From positions 1,116,001-1,180,000 of the forward strand of contig NC_022438.1 of NCBI RefSeq assembly GCF_000470775.1: a stretch of DNA of 64,000 nt. The letters run 5' to 3'. Origin of the DNA: Leifsonia xyli subsp. cynodontis DSM 46306 (lineage in GTDB: Bacteria; Actinomycetota; Actinomycetes; Actinomycetales; Microbacteriaceae). The notes below the pieces were generated by a model. It did not search any database. It was not told where the DNA came from and saw nothing but the letters and a program-made list of their open reading frames with translations. The first letter of the stretch is position 1, and the number at the start of each line of letters is the position of its first letter. Of this stretch, positions 2,769 through 22,750 are shown in pieces. The translations under genes and the position numbers were made by a program.

Positions 2769-3844
2769 CCGACGAGACCACCGAGATCCTGGTGGCCGGA
2801 GCGAACCCGTACGCGATCGTCATCGGCCGCGGCCTGCGGTTCGATCTCGCGCGCCATCTCGGCTCCGCGGTCAGCAAGGTGCTCGTGGTCCACCCGCCGA
2901 CGCTCGGGGCGGCCGCGGCGGAGCTCCGGGAGTCGCTCGCCGGGCAGTACGAGGTGCTCCTCGCCGAAGTGCCGGACGCGGAGGCGGCGAAGCGCATCGA
3001 GGTCGCCTCCTTCCTCTGGGGCATCATGGGCCAGGCCGACTTCACGCGCTCGGACGCCGTGGTCGGCTTCGGCGGCGGCGCCGTCACCGATCTGGCCGGC
3101 TTCGCCGCGGCGACGTGGCTGCGCGGCGTGAAGCTGGTTCAGGTGCCGACGACGCTGCTGGGGATGGTGGACGCCGCGGTCGGCGGCAAGACCGGCATCA
3201 ATACGGCGGAAGGCAAGAATCTCGTCGGGGCGTTCTATGCGCCGGCCGCCGTCGTCTGCGATCTGGACACGCTGAGCTCCCTGGGGCGGAACGAACTGCT
3301 CGCGGGCTTCGCCGAGGTCGTCAAGTACGGCTTCATCGCCGAGCCGGAGATCCTCGACATCATCGAGCGGGATGTGGACGTCGCCACCGATCCGGAGTCT
3401 GCGGAGTTCCGGCGACTGGTCGAACTGTCGATCGGCGTCAAAGCGCGCGTGGTCGGCGAGGACTTCACCGAGCAGGGCCTCCGTGAGATCCTCAACTACG
3501 GGCACACCCTCGGGCACGCGATCGAGCACGCCGAGCGCTACCAGTGGCGGCACGGCGCCGCGATCGCGGTCGGCATGGTGTTCGCGGCCGAGCTCGGTCG
3601 CCTCAGCGGGCGGCTGAGCGAGGCGGCCGTGGAGCGGCATCGCCGCATCCTGACCTCCCTCACGCTGCCGACGAGCTACCCCCTTGGCCGCTGGCAGACG
3701 CTGCTGGCCGCTATGCAGCGCGACAAGAAGGCGCGCGGGAGCCTGTTGCGCTTCATCGTGCTCGACGAGGTGGCGCGGCCGACGGTGCTCGCCGGTCCGG
3801 ATCAGAGTCTGCTGTTCGCCGCCTACCAGGAGATCGCATCCTGA
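2765..3844 (+). CDS. aroB: 3-dehydroquinate synthase
   Basis: Cyclises DAHP to 3-dehydroquinate using NAD+ and a divalent metal. The 359 residues show GGGAVTDLAGFAAATWLRG (NAD-binding), PTTLLGMVDAAVGGKTGIN, and the metal/substrate block NYGHTLGHAIEH. The start ATG overlaps the aroK stop by 4 bp, which fixes it, and the stop overlaps the next gene's ATG by 1 bp. Translational coupling through aroK-aroB-DUF3052 is therefore likely. Confidence 0.97.
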   Translation: MTDETTEILVAGANPYAIVIGRGLRFDLARHLGSAVSKVLVVHPPTLGAAAAELRESLAGQYEVLLAEVPDAEAAKRIEVASFLWGIMGQADFTRSDAVVGFGGGAVTDLAGFAAATWLRGVKLVQVPTTLLGMVDAAVGGKTGINTAEGKNLVGAFYAPAAVVCDLDTLSSLGRNELLAGFAEVVKYGFIAEPEILDIIERDVDVATDPESAEFRRLVELSIGVKARVVGEDFTEQGLREILNYGHTLGHAIEHAERYQWRHGAAIAVGMVFAAELGRLSGRLSEAAVERHRRILTSLTLPTSYPLGRWQTLLAAMQRDKKARGSLLRFIVLDEVARPTVLAGPDQSLLFAAYQEIAS

Positions 3845-15971: not shown

Positions 15972-15975
<4 letters not shown>

Positions 15976-16850
15976 CGGAGGGCGCCCGGGGCGTCGTCCC
16001 CTTCGGCGACCGGCTGGCCGCGGTGTTCGATGCGCGCGGACGGCTGTGCGTCGGGATCGATCCGCACGCCCATCTGCTCGCAGCGTGGGGCCTGCCGGAC
16101 TCGGCCTCGGGCGTACGCGAGTTCGGATTGCGGGTGGTGGACGCTGCCGCTGGCCGTGCCGGGACAGTGAAGCCGCAGGTGGCGTTCTTCGAGCGGTTCG
16201 GCGCCGCCGGATACGCTGCTCTGGAGGAGGTGCTCTCCGCCGCCCGGGCCGCCGGCCTGCTCGTGATCGCCGACGCGAAGCGCGGCGACATCGGCACGAG
16301 TGTGGCCGCATACGCCGAATCGTGGCTGACCCCAGGCTCCCCGCTGGAGGCGGACGCGCTCACCATCGCCGCTTTCCAGGGCGTCGGCTCGATCGACGCG
16401 CCCATGCGCCTCGCCGAGGCGACCGGAAAGGGCCTGTTCGTGCTGGCGGCGACCTCGAATCCGGAGGCCGCCACACTCCAGCAGGCGGTCGTGGCCTCGG
16501 GTCCGAATACCGGGTACACCGTGGCGCGTGCCATCATCGAAGACGTGCAGGTCTTCACCCAGGGGCAGCCCCCACATCCCTTCGCCTCCGTGGGCCTCGT
16601 GCTCGGCGCGACCCTCGATCTCCCCGCGTTCGGAATCGACACCGAACGGGTCTACGCGCCGGCGTTCCCGGTGCTCGCACCGGGCTTCGGCCACCAGGGC
16701 GCGCTGGTCGCAGACGCCCCTCGCCTGTTCGGCTCGCTGGCCCCCGGGGTCATCGTGAGCGAGTCCCGCGGGCTCCTGGCCACCGGTCCCGACGGTATCG
16801 CCGCAGCGATCGCCGGCCGCTCCGAGGAGGTGCGCGCCGCGCATGCCTGA
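15972..16850 (+). CDS. pyrF: Orotidine 5'-phosphate decarboxylase, type 2
   Basis: Last step of UMP synthesis. Type 2 (about 290-residue) class with the catalytic [10 protein letters not shown] motif and [11 protein letters not shown] at the substrate phosphate end; C-terminal region APGFGHQGA and [11 protein letters not shown] start overlapping carB. The last 8 bp overlap the start of the mIHF-Gmk fusion gene. pyrE and pyrD are not in this operon. Confidence 0.95.
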
Positions 16851-17805
16851 CCCCGTCGCCGAGGCAGCCACCGGGTCCGCGGACCGGCGTCGTCCCGCTC
16901 CGCCCGAGGTGGATCGGAAGGCCGCCAGCGCCGCCGCCGTCGCGGCCCGCCGCGCCCGCGCGAGCGTCAAAGCCGCCATCGCCGCCCGCGAGCTCTCGCC
17001 GCTGATCGTCCTCGACCACGCCACGGCCGACCCTGGGGGCGTGGAGGGACGCATCCGGGTCACCGAGTTCCTGCTCAGCGTCCCGGCCATCGGAACGACC
17101 AAGATGCAGGACGCCCTGCGCCGGCTCGGCATCGCCCCCTCCAAGCGGCTCGGCGGGCTCGGCCGGCACCAGCGGCTCCGGCTTCGCGACTTCCTCATCG
17201 AGCGCGAGGAGCGACCGGTCCGGCGGCGCAATCGCCTCGTGGTGCTGGCGGGCCCCACCGCTGTCGGCAAGGGCACGGTCTCGGCCTACATCCGGGAGAA
17301 CTATCCCGAGGTGCTGCTCTCGGTCTCCGCGACCACCCGCTCGCCGCGTCCCGGCGAGATCGACGGCGTCAATTACTACTTCGTCGACGATGCCGCGTTC
17401 GATCGGATGATCGCGGCCGGCGACCTCCTCGAGCACGCGACCGTACACAACGCCTACCGCTACGGAACGCCGCGGGCGCCGATCGAGAAGGCGCTGGACG
17501 AGGGCAGGAGCGTCCTCCTCGAGATCGACCTCCAGGGCGCGCGCCAGGTGCGTGCGTCGATGCCGGAGGCCCGCCTGATCTTCCTGCTGCCCCCGACCTG
17601 GGAGGAGCTGGTTCGCCGGCTCGTCGGCCGGGGCACCGAAGGCGCCGTCGAACAGCAGCGCCGTCTGGAGACCGCGAAGGTCGAACTGGCCGCCCAGAAC
17701 GAGTTCGACCACCGCGTTGTGAACCACACGGTCGCCGATGCCGCCCGGGAGGTCGTAGACTTGATGATGCTTCGCCCGGCGCCGGTACGTCCGTCAACCG
17801 CCTAG
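16843..17805 (+). CDS. gmk: Fused mIHF (DNA-binding) and guanylate kinase
   Basis: One uninterrupted 320-residue frame. Residues 25-118 match actinobacterial integration host factor (mIHF): [16 protein letters not shown], then [20 protein letters not shown] with the helix-two-turns-helix that binds DNA, and [12 protein letters not shown]. Residues 130-310 are a full guanylate kinase: Walker [10 protein letters not shown] at 137-145, [31 protein letters not shown], and DLQGARQVR. In mycobacteria and streptomycetes mihF and gmk are separate neighbours, so this looks like a true gene fusion. The ATG overlaps pyrF by 8 bp. The fusion should make GDP from GMP and may also bind DNA. Confidence 0.9.
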
Positions 17806-17893: not shown

Positions 17894-18157
17894 ATGGCCA
17901 CCAGCACCAACGGCATCATCGACCCGCCCATCGACGACCTCCTCTCCAAAGTCGAGTCCAAGTACGCGCTCGTGATCTTCGCCTCGAAACGCGCTCGGCA
18001 GATCAACGATTACTACGCAGACCTGCACGAGGGCAGCCTGTTCGACAACGTCGGACCGCTTGTGGACTCGTCGGTGGACGACAAGCCCCTCTCGGTGGCC
18101 ATGCACGAGATCAACGAGGACAGACTCGTTCTCAAACCGATCGCCGCCGCCGAATAA
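17894..18157 (+). CDS. rpoZ: RNA polymerase omega subunit
   Basis: The 87-residue product stabilises RNA polymerase beta'. It reads [19 protein letters not shown], then [15 protein letters not shown] and the actinobacterial C-terminal extension ending in [16 protein letters not shown] and HEINEDRL. The ATG after AAGGAG at 17879 is preferred; an in-frame upstream ATG (17822) would add a non-homologous leader. Located after gmk as in most actinobacteria. Confidence 0.96.
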
Positions 18158-18243: not shown

Positions 18244-19539
18244 GTGAGCGCGCGCTTGACCATCGTCGTCGGAGTGACCGGCGGCATCGCCGCCTACAAA
18301 GCCGTGGGCGTGATCCGGGCGCTCGTGCTCGAGGGCCACTCCGTCCACGTCGTCGCGACGGAGGCCGCGCTGCGGTTCGTTGGCCGGCCGACGTTGGAGG
18401 CGATCAGCAGGAACCCCGTCGCGACCGATCTGTACGAGGGCGTCGCGGAGGTGCGGCATGTGGCCATCGGCCAGTCCGCCGACCTCATCGTGATCGCTCC
18501 GGCGACGGCCAACACCATCGCCAAGCTCGCCGCGGGGCTCGCCGACGATCTGCTCGGCAACACCGTCCTCGCCTCCACCGCCCCCCTCGTGATCGCCCCG
18601 GCGATGCACACCGAGATGTGGCAGAACCCGGCGACGGCGGCCAACATCGCGACGCTCACCGACCGCGGTGTGATCGTCGTCGGTCCCGCGTCCGGTCCGC
18701 TGACGGGCAGCGAGAGCGGACCGGGCCGTCTCGAGGAGACCGAGACCATCGTCCGGACGGCGTTGCGCGCCGTCGGCATCGCGCCGCGCCCGGTCGTCTC
18801 GGCGGTCCCCGAGCTCGCGGCCGACATCGTCGTGCTCTCGGAGCGCCGGCGTGCGAACGAGGCCGCGCGGCGGCCGCGCGGCGGGGTGGACCTCCGCGGC
18901 AAGCGTGTCGTGATCACCGCCGGCGGGACCCGCGAGCCGTTGGACCCGGTGCGCTTCTTCGGCAACCGCTCCAGCGGCCGGCAGGGCGTCGCGCTCGCCT
19001 GGGCGGCGCAGGCGCGGGGAGCGGAGGTCGTGCTGATCGCGGCGTATCTGGAGATCGAGCCGCCGGACGGTGTCGAGTTCGTTCCGGTGCGGACCGCGCT
19101 GGAATTGCAGGAGGCCGTGACCGAGTCCGCCCGTGCCGCCGACATCGTGGTGATGGCGGCCGCCGTGGCCGACTACCGTCCGGCATCGAGTCGCGACAGC
19201 AAGATCAAGAAATCCGAGACAGGGGAGACCCTGACGCTGGAGCTCGTCGCCAATCCCGACATCCTCGCCGGGCTCACCCGCGAGAAGCGTCACGGGCAGG
19301 TGATCGTCGGCTTCGCGGCCGAGACGGAGCCCGACCCGTCGGCTCTCATCGAACGGGGCCGCGGCAAGCTGGCGGCCAAGGGCGCGGACTTCCTCGTGCT
19401 CAACCAGGTGGCCTGGGATCAGGGCTTCCAGACGGAGAACAACGCGGTCGTCGTTCTGCGCAGGGGCGGAGATATAGTGATGGAGGCCTCCGGGAGCAAA
19501 CTGTCGGTGGCCGATCGTATTCTCGACGTCATCGTCTGA
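18244..19539 (+). CDS. coaBC: Bifunctional phosphopantothenoylcysteine decarboxylase/synthase
   Basis: Makes 4'-phosphopantetheine for CoA. The N-terminal FMN flavoprotein (CoaC) part has [13 protein letters not shown], the [12 protein letters not shown] loop and [14 protein letters not shown]. The C-terminal CoaB part begins near residue 215 with [17 protein letters not shown] and NRSSGRQG and includes AAVADYRP. The 431 residues equal the usual fusion. GTG start with AGGGGGTGA upstream. A gap of 41 bp separates it from metK. Confidence 0.94.
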
Positions 19540-19580: not shown

Positions 19581-20774
19581 ATGGCCGATCTGCGTCTCTT
19601 CACGTCCGAGTCTGTGACCGAGGGCCACCCGGACAAGATCTGCGATCAGATCTCCGACAGCATCCTCGATGCCCTGCTCGCCGTCGACGAGCACAGCCGT
19701 GTCGCCGTCGAGACGCTCGTGACCACCGGTCTCGTGCATGTGGCCGGTGAGGTCACCACCAAGGGCTATGTCGAGATCCCGGCGCTCGTGCGGGACACCA
19801 TCGTAGAGATCGGCTACGACTCCTCCGATGTCAGCTTCGACGGCACGCAGTGCGGTGTCTCCGTCTCGATCGGCGCCCAGTCGCCGGACATCGCACAGGG
19901 CGTCGACAATGCGCTGGAGACGCGATCCGAGCAGAGCCGGGACGACCTCGACCGGCAGGGCGCGGGCGACCAGGGCATCATGTTCGGCTTCGCCACCACC
20001 GAGACCCCGCAGTACATGCCGCTGCCGATCTGGCTGGCTCATCGGCTCGCCGAACGTCTTGCGGCGGTGCGCAAGGACGGCACGCTCGGCTATCTGCGCC
20101 CGGATGGCAAGACCCAGGTCACGATCGGCTACGAGGGCTATGTGCCGAAGAGCGTGCAGACCGTCGTGCTGTCCACCCAGCACGCGTGGGACATCCCCAG
20201 CGAGCGCCTGCGAGCGGAGGTGATCGAGCAGGTCATCGAGCCTGTCATGCATGCCGCGGGAGTGGAGACCTCGCACATCCGCACTCTGATCAACCCCACC
20301 GGCCGCTTCGAGATCGGTGGGCCGAAGGGGGACGCCGGTCTCACCGGCCGCAAGATCATCGTCGACACCTATGGCGGCGCGAGCCGTCACGGCGGCGGCG
20401 CGTTCTCCGGCAAAGACCCGTCGAAGGTGGACCGCTCGGCCGCGTACGCTCTGCGCTGGGTGGCGAAGAACGCGGTCGCCGCGGGGCTCGCGGACCGGCT
20501 CGAGGTGCAGATCGCCTACGCGATTGGCAAGGCCGCCCCGGTCGGGCTCTACGTCGAGACCTTCGGCACCGCTCACGTTCCGGACGAACGCATCATCCAC
20601 GCCATCCGTGAGGTCTTCGATCTGCGACCGGCCGCCATCGCGCGCGACCTCGACCTGCTCCGTCCGATCTACGCGCGCACGGCGACGTACGGCCACTTCG
20701 GCCGCGAGCTCCCGGACTTCACCTGGGAGCGGCTCGACCGCGTCGACGACCTGCGCTCGGCCGCGGGGCTGTAG
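19581..20774 (+). CDS. metK: S-adenosylmethionine synthetase
   Basis: Forms SAM from methionine and ATP. Start ATG gives [19 protein letters not shown], the canonical N-terminus. Further signatures are [12 protein letters not shown] (signature 1) and [16 protein letters not shown] (signature 2). Length 397. CAGGAG precedes the ATG. The priA GTG follows after 2 bp. Confidence 0.97.
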
Positions 20775-20776
20775 CC

Positions 20777-22750
20777 GTGCCGGCGGCCGCCCGGGTCGCT
20801 CGCGTCGTCCTCGATTCGCCGCTCCCGCAGCTCGACCACTTCTTCGACTATCTCGTCCCCGAGGAACTGGCCGCCCAGGCGTTCCCCGGCGTCCGTGTGC
20901 GCGTTCCGCTTCGCACCGCGGGACGGGTCGCCGACGGCTACCTCGTGGAATGGGCCGGGCCCGAGGGCGCCTATGAGGGTCGGCTCAGCCTGATCGAGTC
21001 GGTCGTCTCGCCGGTGCCGGTGCTCACGCCCGGGGTGTGGCGGCTGGCGCGGCGGCTGGCCGACCGCAGCGCCGGGACGGCCAGCGACATCCTGCGCCTG
21101 GCGATTCCCGGGCGGATGGTGCGCGTCGAGAAGCAGTGGCTTGCCCAGCCGGAGAGCGAGCGCAACCCGGCAGCGTCCCCCCCGGCGATCGGCGTGCGCG
21201 GGTACGGCGAGTGTACGCTGGAGACCGCCGTCGCGCGCGGCGAACGCCTAGCCCTCCGCGCCCTGCCCCGGCTCAGCCCGCTGCCGGACGGCACCTGGGT
21301 GGGCGAGTGGGCGATCACCCTCGCTGCGCTCGCGGCCGCGACCTGGAGCACAGGGCGTTCGGCGATCCTGGCTGTGCCCGATCACCGCGATCTGGAGCAG
21401 CTGTCGGCAGCCCTGGCTGCGATCGTGCCGGCCACGGCGGTGGTCCGCACCGATGCGTCACAGGCCAACGCCGACCGCTACCGCGGTTTCTTGGCGGCGC
21501 TGGCCGGGCCGCGCATCCTGATCGGCAACCGCTCGGTGGTGTACGCTCCCGCGGACGACCTGGGACTGATCGCGGTCTGGGAGGACAGCGACCCCCTGCA
21601 CGCGGAACCGCTCGCGCCCTATGTCCACACGCGGGACGCGGCCCTCGTCCGGCAGGAGCTGACCGGCTGCGGGCTCGTCGTGAGCGGGCTCGTCCGCAGC
21701 GTCGAGGCTCAGCGGCTGGTCGAGCTGGGCTGGCTTCGGGACACGGCTCCCGAACGGGCGTCTGCGCCGAAAGTCGTTCTGACCTCGGCGCAGCAGGCGG
21801 ACGAGCCCGCCGCCCGCGCGGCGCGCATCCCCTCGGGAGCCTGGCGGGCGGCCCGGAAAGCCCTGGATCACGGCCCCGTGCTCGTGCAGGTGGCGCGCCC
21901 CGGTTACGCCCCGCTGCTAGCTTGCGCGAGCTGTGGCCAGGCCGCGCGCTGCACCCGCTGCACCGGGCCGCTCGGCCAGAGACAGGCGGGGGCGAGGCCC
22001 TCGTGCCAGTGGTGCGGCGCGCTCGCGACCGACTGGAGCTGCTCGCGCTGCGAGCACACGGCGTTCCGGATGGTCACGCCCGGTTCGGGACGCACAGCGG
22101 AGGAGCTGGGCCGGGCCTTCCCCGGTACGCGCATCGTCCTGGCGGACGGCGACCATCCGGTGCGGCGTATCGGGCCGGCCCCAGCGCTCGTGGTCGCCAC
22201 CCGCGGGGCCGAGCCGATCGCGGACGGCGGCTACCGCGCTGTCCTGCTGCTCGACGGAGAGCGGATGCTCGCCCGGGAGAGCCTGCGCGTGGCCGAGGAC
22301 TGCCTTCGCTGGTGGACCAGCGCCGCCGTCCTCGCCGCGCCCGGCGCGCCCACCGTGCTCGTCGGGGTGTCCGGCGCTCTCGCGCGGGCCTTCGCGACCG
22401 GCCGGCTGGTGGACTTCGCCCGCGAAGAGCTCGCCGACCGGCGCGGACTCCGTTTTCCGCCCGCGGTGCGGCTCGCCTCGATCACGGGCGCTCCGGCGGC
22501 CGTGGACGCGGTCGTCGCCGCGGTGGGTCCCGGTCTGCTCATCGACGTGCTCGGTCCGGTGGAGGTGGGCGAGAAGACGGTGCGCAGCATCCTGCGCTTC
22601 GAGTACGCGCGTGGAGCCGAGATCGCGGCAGCTGTGCGGGGCCAGGTGGTGCGGAACGCGACGCAGCGCCGGAAGGCGCCGGCCGGACGCGGCGGCTACC
22701 GCCCCGCTCCGTCGCTGCGCGTGCGCTTCGACGATCCGGAGATCCTCTGA
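20777..22750 (+). CDS. priA: Primosomal protein N' (PriA-like, helicase motifs absent)
   Basis: 657 residues. The N-terminal 3'-DNA-binding domain (VARVVLDSPLPQLDHFFDY, FPGVRVRVPLR) is clear. A zinc-binding block of paired Cys follows (CASCGQAARCTRCTGPLG, CQWCGA, CSRCEH). The position of Walker A reads ATWSTGRSAIL with no GKT, as is typical of actinobacterial PriA, which are thought to lack helicase activity. Its stop codon lies inside the attL core of the prophage, so the insertion left the coding sequence whole. Confidence 0.88.
   Translation: MPAAARVARVVLDSPLPQLDHFFDYLVPEELAAQAFPGVRVRVPLRTAGRVADGYLVEWAGPEGAYEGRLSLIESVVSPVPVLTPGVWRLARRLADRSAGTASDILRLAIPGRMVRVEKQWLAQPESERNPAASPPAIGVRGYGECTLETAVARGERLALRALPRLSPLPDGTWVGEWAITLAALAAATWSTGRSAILAVPDHRDLEQLSAALAAIVPATAVVRTDASQANADRYRGFLAALAGPRILIGNRSVVYAPADDLGLIAVWEDSDPLHAEPLAPYVHTRDAALVRQELTGCGLVVSGLVRSVEAQRLVELGWLRDTAPERASAPKVVLTSAQQADEPAARAARIPSGAWRAARKALDHGPVLVQVARPGYAPLLACASCGQAARCTRCTGPLGQRQAGARPSCQWCGALATDWSCSRCEHTAFRMVTPGSGRTAEELGRAFPGTRIVLADGDHPVRRIGPAPALVVATRGAEPIADGGYRAVLLLDGERMLARESLRVAEDCLRWWTSAAVLAAPGAPTVLVGVSGALARAFATGRLVDFAREELADRRGLRFPPAVRLASITGAPAAVDAVVAAVGPGLLIDVLGPVEVGEKTVRSILRFEYARGAEIAAAVRGQVVRNATQRRKAPAGRGGYRPAPSLRVRFDDPEIL

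Follow-up and report, generated by a model that had tools for sequence, protein, structure and literature searches.

Does the gene at 16,843 in the window (the whole stretch of 64,000 nucleotides of Leifsonia xyli subsp. cynodontis DSM 46306 DNA that was analysed) truly encode one protein in which an mIHF-like DNA-binding domain is joined to a guanylate kinase (Gmk), and, if so, what might such a junction do? The first-pass annotation had described a single frame of 320 codons, and this frame is indeed open from its ATG to its TAG. The landmarks of the gene are the following.

16824..16832, + strand: Shine-Dalgarno-like sequence GAGGAGGTG upstream of the fusion start (read from the sequence)
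16843..17805, + strand: mIHF-Gmk fusion gene, ATG at 16843 to TAG at 17805, one open frame of 320 codons
16912..17190, + strand: actinobacterial-type IHF domain, residues 24-116 (NF041260; matches to PDB 6tob and 4itq)
17143..17163, + strand: H2TH turn KRLGGLG, residues 101-107 (alignment with separate mIHFs)
17197..17229, + strand: linker, residues 119-129 (quickest-changing part by dN/dS)
17230..17769, + strand: guanylate kinase domain, residues 130-309 (TIGR03263; nearest solved chains 1s4q and 1znw)
17251..17277, + strand: P-loop GPTAVGKGT, residues 137-145 (read from the sequence)

Both domains are complete, as had been claimed. The actino_IHF model (NCBIfam NF041260) matches residues 24-116, noted earlier as 25-118, with 70.7 bits and passes its cut-off of 60. 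The NCBIfam equivalog guanyl_kin (TIGR03263) matches residues 131-308 with 206.8 bits, above its cut-off of 160.45, and the Walker A motif lies at residues 137-145 as described. In Pfam, H2TH_5 (59-114) and Guanylate_kin (130-308) each score above their cut-offs. In the set of solved structures, two distinct sequences resemble the N-terminal part, namely mIHF (6tob) and the Streptomyces homologue SCO1480 (4itq/6bek), while the kinase part matches guanylate kinases, with 1s4q and 1znw at the top. A fusion profile built from 27 sequences hits 45 solved sequences, and not one of them spans both domains. The kinase motif residues, including R169, E197, D229, R259 and R263, are invariant in the alignment of 27 fusions, and we take them to serve the P-loop and GMP binding. 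As the mIHF domain is fused in one frame and has no second copy in the genome, the gene is not a stand-alone small nucleoid protein and is classed as a fusion with an mIHF domain rather than as mIHF proper.

The host genome consists of one contig of 2,686,418 bases and is 100% complete. At E 0.001 the fusion is the sole match to itself, and hence the only Gmk found. Gmk is described as essential in an excerpt of PMC5686395; with a single Gmk in a complete genome, GMP kinase activity should come from the fusion. What was noted earlier for the window, the absence of a separate mihF, holds for the genome in full, where the fusion is the sole actino_IHF match above the cut-off. One candidate for a second stand-alone mihF, with 16.4 bits, turned out to be ribosomal protein S13, another protein with the H2TH fold. 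One Lsr2 match and one HU-type match are also present.

The neighbours of the fusion gene are the following.

15972..16850, + strand: pyrF (TIGR02127, OMPdecase), its last 8 bases lying within the fusion gene
17894..18157, + strand: rpoZ, RNA polymerase omega (TIGR00690, RNA_pol_Rpb6)
18244..19539, + strand: coaBC, downstream of rpoZ (profile matches)
ending at 20774, after coaBC: metK (profile matches)
20777-22750, after metK: gene with a PriA 3'-binding domain (profile match)

In a Tsukamurella record the order mihF-gmk-rpoZ-coaBC-metK matches that of the window. A Microbacterium record (L305, 1541-4982) is arranged differently: rpoZ is separated from the fusion gene by two Fic-family genes, coaBC is missing from the interval between rpoZ and metK, and pyrF is annotated as two pieces. 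The core gene region with the fusion sits, in this record, on a replicon labelled as a plasmid.

An assembly error or a frameshift could in principle have joined two neighbouring genes. The spread of the fusion within the family refutes this explanation, whose probability is practically nil. In a sample of 150 genomes of Microbacteriaceae, a large family of soil- and plant-dwelling bacteria, with the window's own included, a fusion-profile match was found in 148 (E 1e-20). A search for the two-domain architecture, proposed in the first-pass annotation, recovered the same single frame over both domains in 137 of the 150 by hand count (132 free of stops, five with a terminal stop only). Those five rows had been flagged for an internal stop; once fetched, the stop proved to be the normal terminal one. 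The linkers of genus g85 genomes, flagged at first for stops, were likewise read as open. Moreover, the frame breaks seen in G009 and L174 split the halves, whereas the supposed artefact would have to join them. The fusion is thus real and widespread, and probably old. Twelve named loci with 82-86% identity to the window protein all belong to Leifsonia.

Thirteen family genomes lack the single frame. Two of them are matchless (75% and 66% complete), one has its two parts split over the ends of two contigs, and one, G009 (86% complete), is frame-broken. Gmk without the mIHF half was found in nine of the 150 genomes: G065, G070, G133, G010, G092, G013, G095, G081 and G144 (loci L072, L073, L075, L077, L078 and L080-L083). 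Eight of these nine form four same-genus pairs, and six are smaller than 1.6 Mb. Completeness is only 78-84% for G065, G081 and G144. G070 and G133 are both 100% complete and gave no actino_IHF match at E 0.01, so the domain is truly lost there. On the Gmk tree the fused group takes in G065, G070 and G133, with modest support, which suggests that the mIHF half was lost after the fusion. No stand-alone mIHF was found among the 150 family genomes, one frame-broken gene apart.

The frame of G009 (L071/L085) breaks at nearly the same glycine codons in the H2TH turn as that of L174 (around 3260), an unrelated genome. Both breaks, coincident as they are, are probably sequencing errors in a GC-rich spot. 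A different break occurs in the draft genome of Naasia lichenicola (L175, around 3300-3600). Here, extra bases lie between the halves, which are in different frames. This is an apparent natural re-split of the fusion, one among 80 named loci, a set chosen for likeness to the window protein and hence biased towards fused genes.

Outside the family, a class-wide search of 394 genomes revealed, among the matches listed, uninterrupted fusions in family f44 and in genus g254 of family f51. Family f44 has genomes of 0.9-2.2 Mb and belongs to an order other than that of Microbacteriaceae; our guess, from genome size, is that it corresponds to the freshwater acI/Nanopelagicales group. Twenty of these uninterrupted loci were read (18 from f44, 2 from f51), and all of them contain the complete fusion. 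The fusion loci outside Microbacteriaceae are L177-L196, L256, L260, L266 and L268 (f44; g254 of f51). By hand count, 68 of 101 f44 genomes are fused: 71 rows extend over both domains, comprising 65 without a stop and six with one (three fused, three separate). In the f44 genera g274, g283, g285, g297 and g299, two matches or a Gmk only were found per genome, and two g283 genomes are matchless. Separate genes were read in f44 at L200, L211, L213 and L216, and at two more loci of g283 and one of g301. The fusions listed are a minimum, and more may exist. The mIHF domain was not found in the phage collection.

The first-pass annotation had held that mihF and gmk are separate neighbours elsewhere in actinobacteria. 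This stands for the other actinobacterial lineages that were read and fails for Microbacteriaceae, in which the fusion is a family trait, and for parts of two further families. Separate mihF and gmk account for 47 rows of the first alignment (L200, L211, L213 and L216 included) and for 38 of the 42 loci of a second set, the remaining four being f44 fusions. Each of the two genes is named in the Tsukamurella and Collinsella records.

Whether the fusion arose once was addressed with two trees. In the Gmk tree of 128 rows, Microbacteriaceae, the f44 fusions and the f51 fusions occupy three separate places, with 49 of the 125 inner branches drawn open. The f51 fusion pair clusters there with a separate-gene relative, L201 (support 96). 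In the two-domain tree, the 42 fused Microbacteriaceae rows form one side of a branch with a support of 100. A single clade of Microbacteriaceae and f44 fusions was not rejected by the AU test on Gmk alone (p 0.083) and was rejected on both domains with 104 rows (p 0.006); neither p-value is clean, because eight long-branch rows were removed ahead of both tests and the groups were defined after viewing a first tree. Judged from the trees, the fusion has more than one origin, having apparently arisen separately in f44 and in one f51 genus.

The arrangement of the separate genes indicates how such a fusion could come about. In some separate lineages, mihF and gmk are a few codons apart and in the same frame across one stop codon; these rows were selected since the match ran through one stop, and they do not represent a frequency. 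In the Collinsella record, the last base of mihF immediately precedes the start of gmk. The simplest route would be that, early in Microbacteriaceae, the stop codon between the adjacent genes was lost. This proximity also favours a neutral fusion, in which the loss of a stop joined two close genes, the domains work as before and the tether has no role, a reading compatible with both halves being functional. The nine sampled family genomes that retain Gmk without the mIHF half point the same way, as does the apparent re-split in Naasia; together, these cases argue against a strict need for coupling. Against neutrality, the fusion is retained in the majority of the family's sampled genera and is fixed in two further lineages. 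Re-splitting, too, seems possible, yet only that one apparent case occurs in the named loci, biased as they are towards fused genes. Taken by itself, the neutral fusion falls a little short of an even chance, and we consider it about as likely as coupling of any kind.

Selection on the two halves was estimated as median dN/dS by the Nei-Gojobori method with 11 Leifsonia relatives (of the 12 chosen, one without the search pattern was left out). Synonymous differences are already high at this distance, which qualifies the values obtained: 0.156 for the mIHF domain, 0.357 for the linker and 0.130 for Gmk between the window and the relatives, and 0.131, 0.366 and 0.115, respectively, among the relatives themselves. 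By this measure, both domains are under purifying selection.

The residues which we take to be the DNA contacts of mIHF are the arginines of the RRxR turn and of the N-terminal helix. All the basic residues of the helix (R36, R39 and K43) are present in the window fusion. In the alignment of 65 fused and 47 separate mIHFs, every row has R36, R39, G84 and Q110 and a basic residue at position 43, which is K43 in all 65 fused ones. The turn is different: it reads KRLGGLG here versus RRxRGLG in most of the aligned separate mIHFs of the class. The complete RRxR is therefore absent, as KRLG keeps the first two basic residues and has a glycine as the third. A basic residue stands at position 101 in 63 of the 65 fused proteins, and likewise at position 102 in 63. 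The third one is lost in 64 of the 65, and in all three fused clades, versus 5 of the 47 separate mIHFs.

The missing residue could mean that the N-terminal domain has given up the role of a general nucleoid protein and now serves the kinase in oligomerisation or regulation, its DNA binding being weak or altered. Several observations speak against this. The difference amounts to three independent contrasts only, too few for a sign test to reach 0.05 (p 0.25). The third residue is also absent in 10 of the 38 separate mIHFs of the second set (7/17 from other classes, 3/21 from the same class), which weakens its loss as a mark of the fusion; it does not define the mIHF family, either, since separate mIHFs without it occur in both sets. 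Furthermore, the domain is no less positively charged in the fusions: the mean net charge is 7.8 in Microbacteriaceae fusions and 9.8 in f44 fusions, compared with 7.3 in separate mIHFs and 10.0 in the separate ones of f44. With the helix residues kept in every fused row and the first two turn positions basic in nearly all, this change of role is considered unlikely. DNA binding by the fusion is likely kept; it may be weakened or altered, given the third basic residue lost in nearly all fused proteins. In separate mIHFs from other classes of the phylum, Q replaces this residue at L273, L275, L276, L278, L280, L282 and L283, and it is therefore not universal among mIHFs.

A further question is whether the gene yields one product or two. 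Fused loci (126 of the 128 offered) were scanned for internal starts from the H2TH turn to the P-loop. An ATG is present in 15 of the 126, in seven of them with a Shine-Dalgarno-like box. Any ATG, GTG or TTG occurs in 108, in 26 with such a box, these being plain counts with no chance control. As an ATG in the linker is rare across the fused loci, a conserved internal initiation of gmk was rejected, and a separate Gmk made by this route is not conserved. Alternatively, the finished chain could be cleaved to give separate mIHF-like and Gmk-like proteins, so that the two need not be present 1:1 where they are used. The linker, as the most variable part, would suit a cleavage site. In an excerpt of PMC6155035, mIHF is among the ten most abundant proteins of a relative, an abundance that fits poorly with a 1:1 ratio to an enzyme. 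Two products by internal starts, the other route to the same end, lack conservation, and cleavage is judged improbable.

The best explanation, which we consider quite probable from these comparisons, is a bifunctional protein: one chain with both activities, a DNA-associated guanylate kinase. Both halves would have been kept by purifying selection since the fusion. The H2TH domain would keep the enzyme at the nucleoid, where its kinase domain would turn GMP into GDP. Should the kinase domain form dimers, as Gmk of other bacteria is reported to do, the DNA-binding part would also become bivalent. According to excerpts of the respective papers, mIHF binds DNA, is a homodimer as a recombinant protein and has been reported to bend or compact DNA (PMC3724605); GMK is a dimer, whose contacts decide inhibition by (p)ppGpp (PMC6783271); and (p)ppGpp inhibits Gmk in most actinobacteria but not that of M. 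tuberculosis (PMC5686395).

A bolder version of the bifunctional protein is a nucleotide-sensing nucleoid protein. Depending on whether the kinase is empty, bound to GMP/ATP or inhibited by (p)ppGpp, and on its dimer contacts, the attached mIHF domain would bind or bridge DNA differently, and the independent fusions would have arisen because separate mIHF and Gmk already cooperate. If this were true, chromosome folding and transcription would respond directly to guanine-nucleotide status. This reading is rather unlikely. More than one independent fusion suggests, without proving it, that a working relation between GTP supply and nucleoid structure lies behind the conserved mihF-gmk-rpoZ linkage. 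The naturally fused, separate, re-split and mIHF-less lineages make this relation testable. In practice, knock-down, drugging or overexpression of gmk in Microbacteriaceae would also alter a likely chromosome protein, and vice versa.

No report of a fusion between mIHF, or integration host factor, and guanylate kinase was found in the open-licence papers, and the same literature gave no papers on Microbacteriaceae with guanylate kinase or on a guanylate kinase gene fusion. Integration host factor together with gmk and rpoZ led to PMC6155035. The NCBIfam mIHF model is typed as an equivalog_domain, hence its curators may know of longer proteins. In a public Microbacterium record, the fusion is one 897-base CDS named gmk alone: the annotated record seen hides the fusion under a single gene name. 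The finding thus offers a cheap annotation fix, an mIHF domain inside a record named guanylate kinase.

Compared with known systems, the N-terminal half is closest to mIHF/sIHF (NF041260; 6tob, 4itq, 6bek), with which it shares the sequence family, the H2TH core, the basic N-terminal helix and the position ahead of the kinase gene and rpoZ. The annotated members that were read are stand-alone genes of 103-105 codons with a stop, whereas here the domain forms the N-terminal end of an enzyme and has a glycine in place of the third basic RRxR residue. Like bacterial Gmk (TIGR03263; 1s4q, 1znw), the fusion has a complete kinase domain, with the P-loop and the conserved motifs, but it adds some 118 N-terminal residues that include the mIHF domain. 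A guanylate-kinase-like domain within a multidomain chain is also seen in eukaryotic MAGUK-type proteins, which are among the structure matches of the kinase part and in which such domains are mostly not kinases. The partner domains of these proteins are unrelated to mIHF, and nothing is in common with the fusion beyond the kinase fold.
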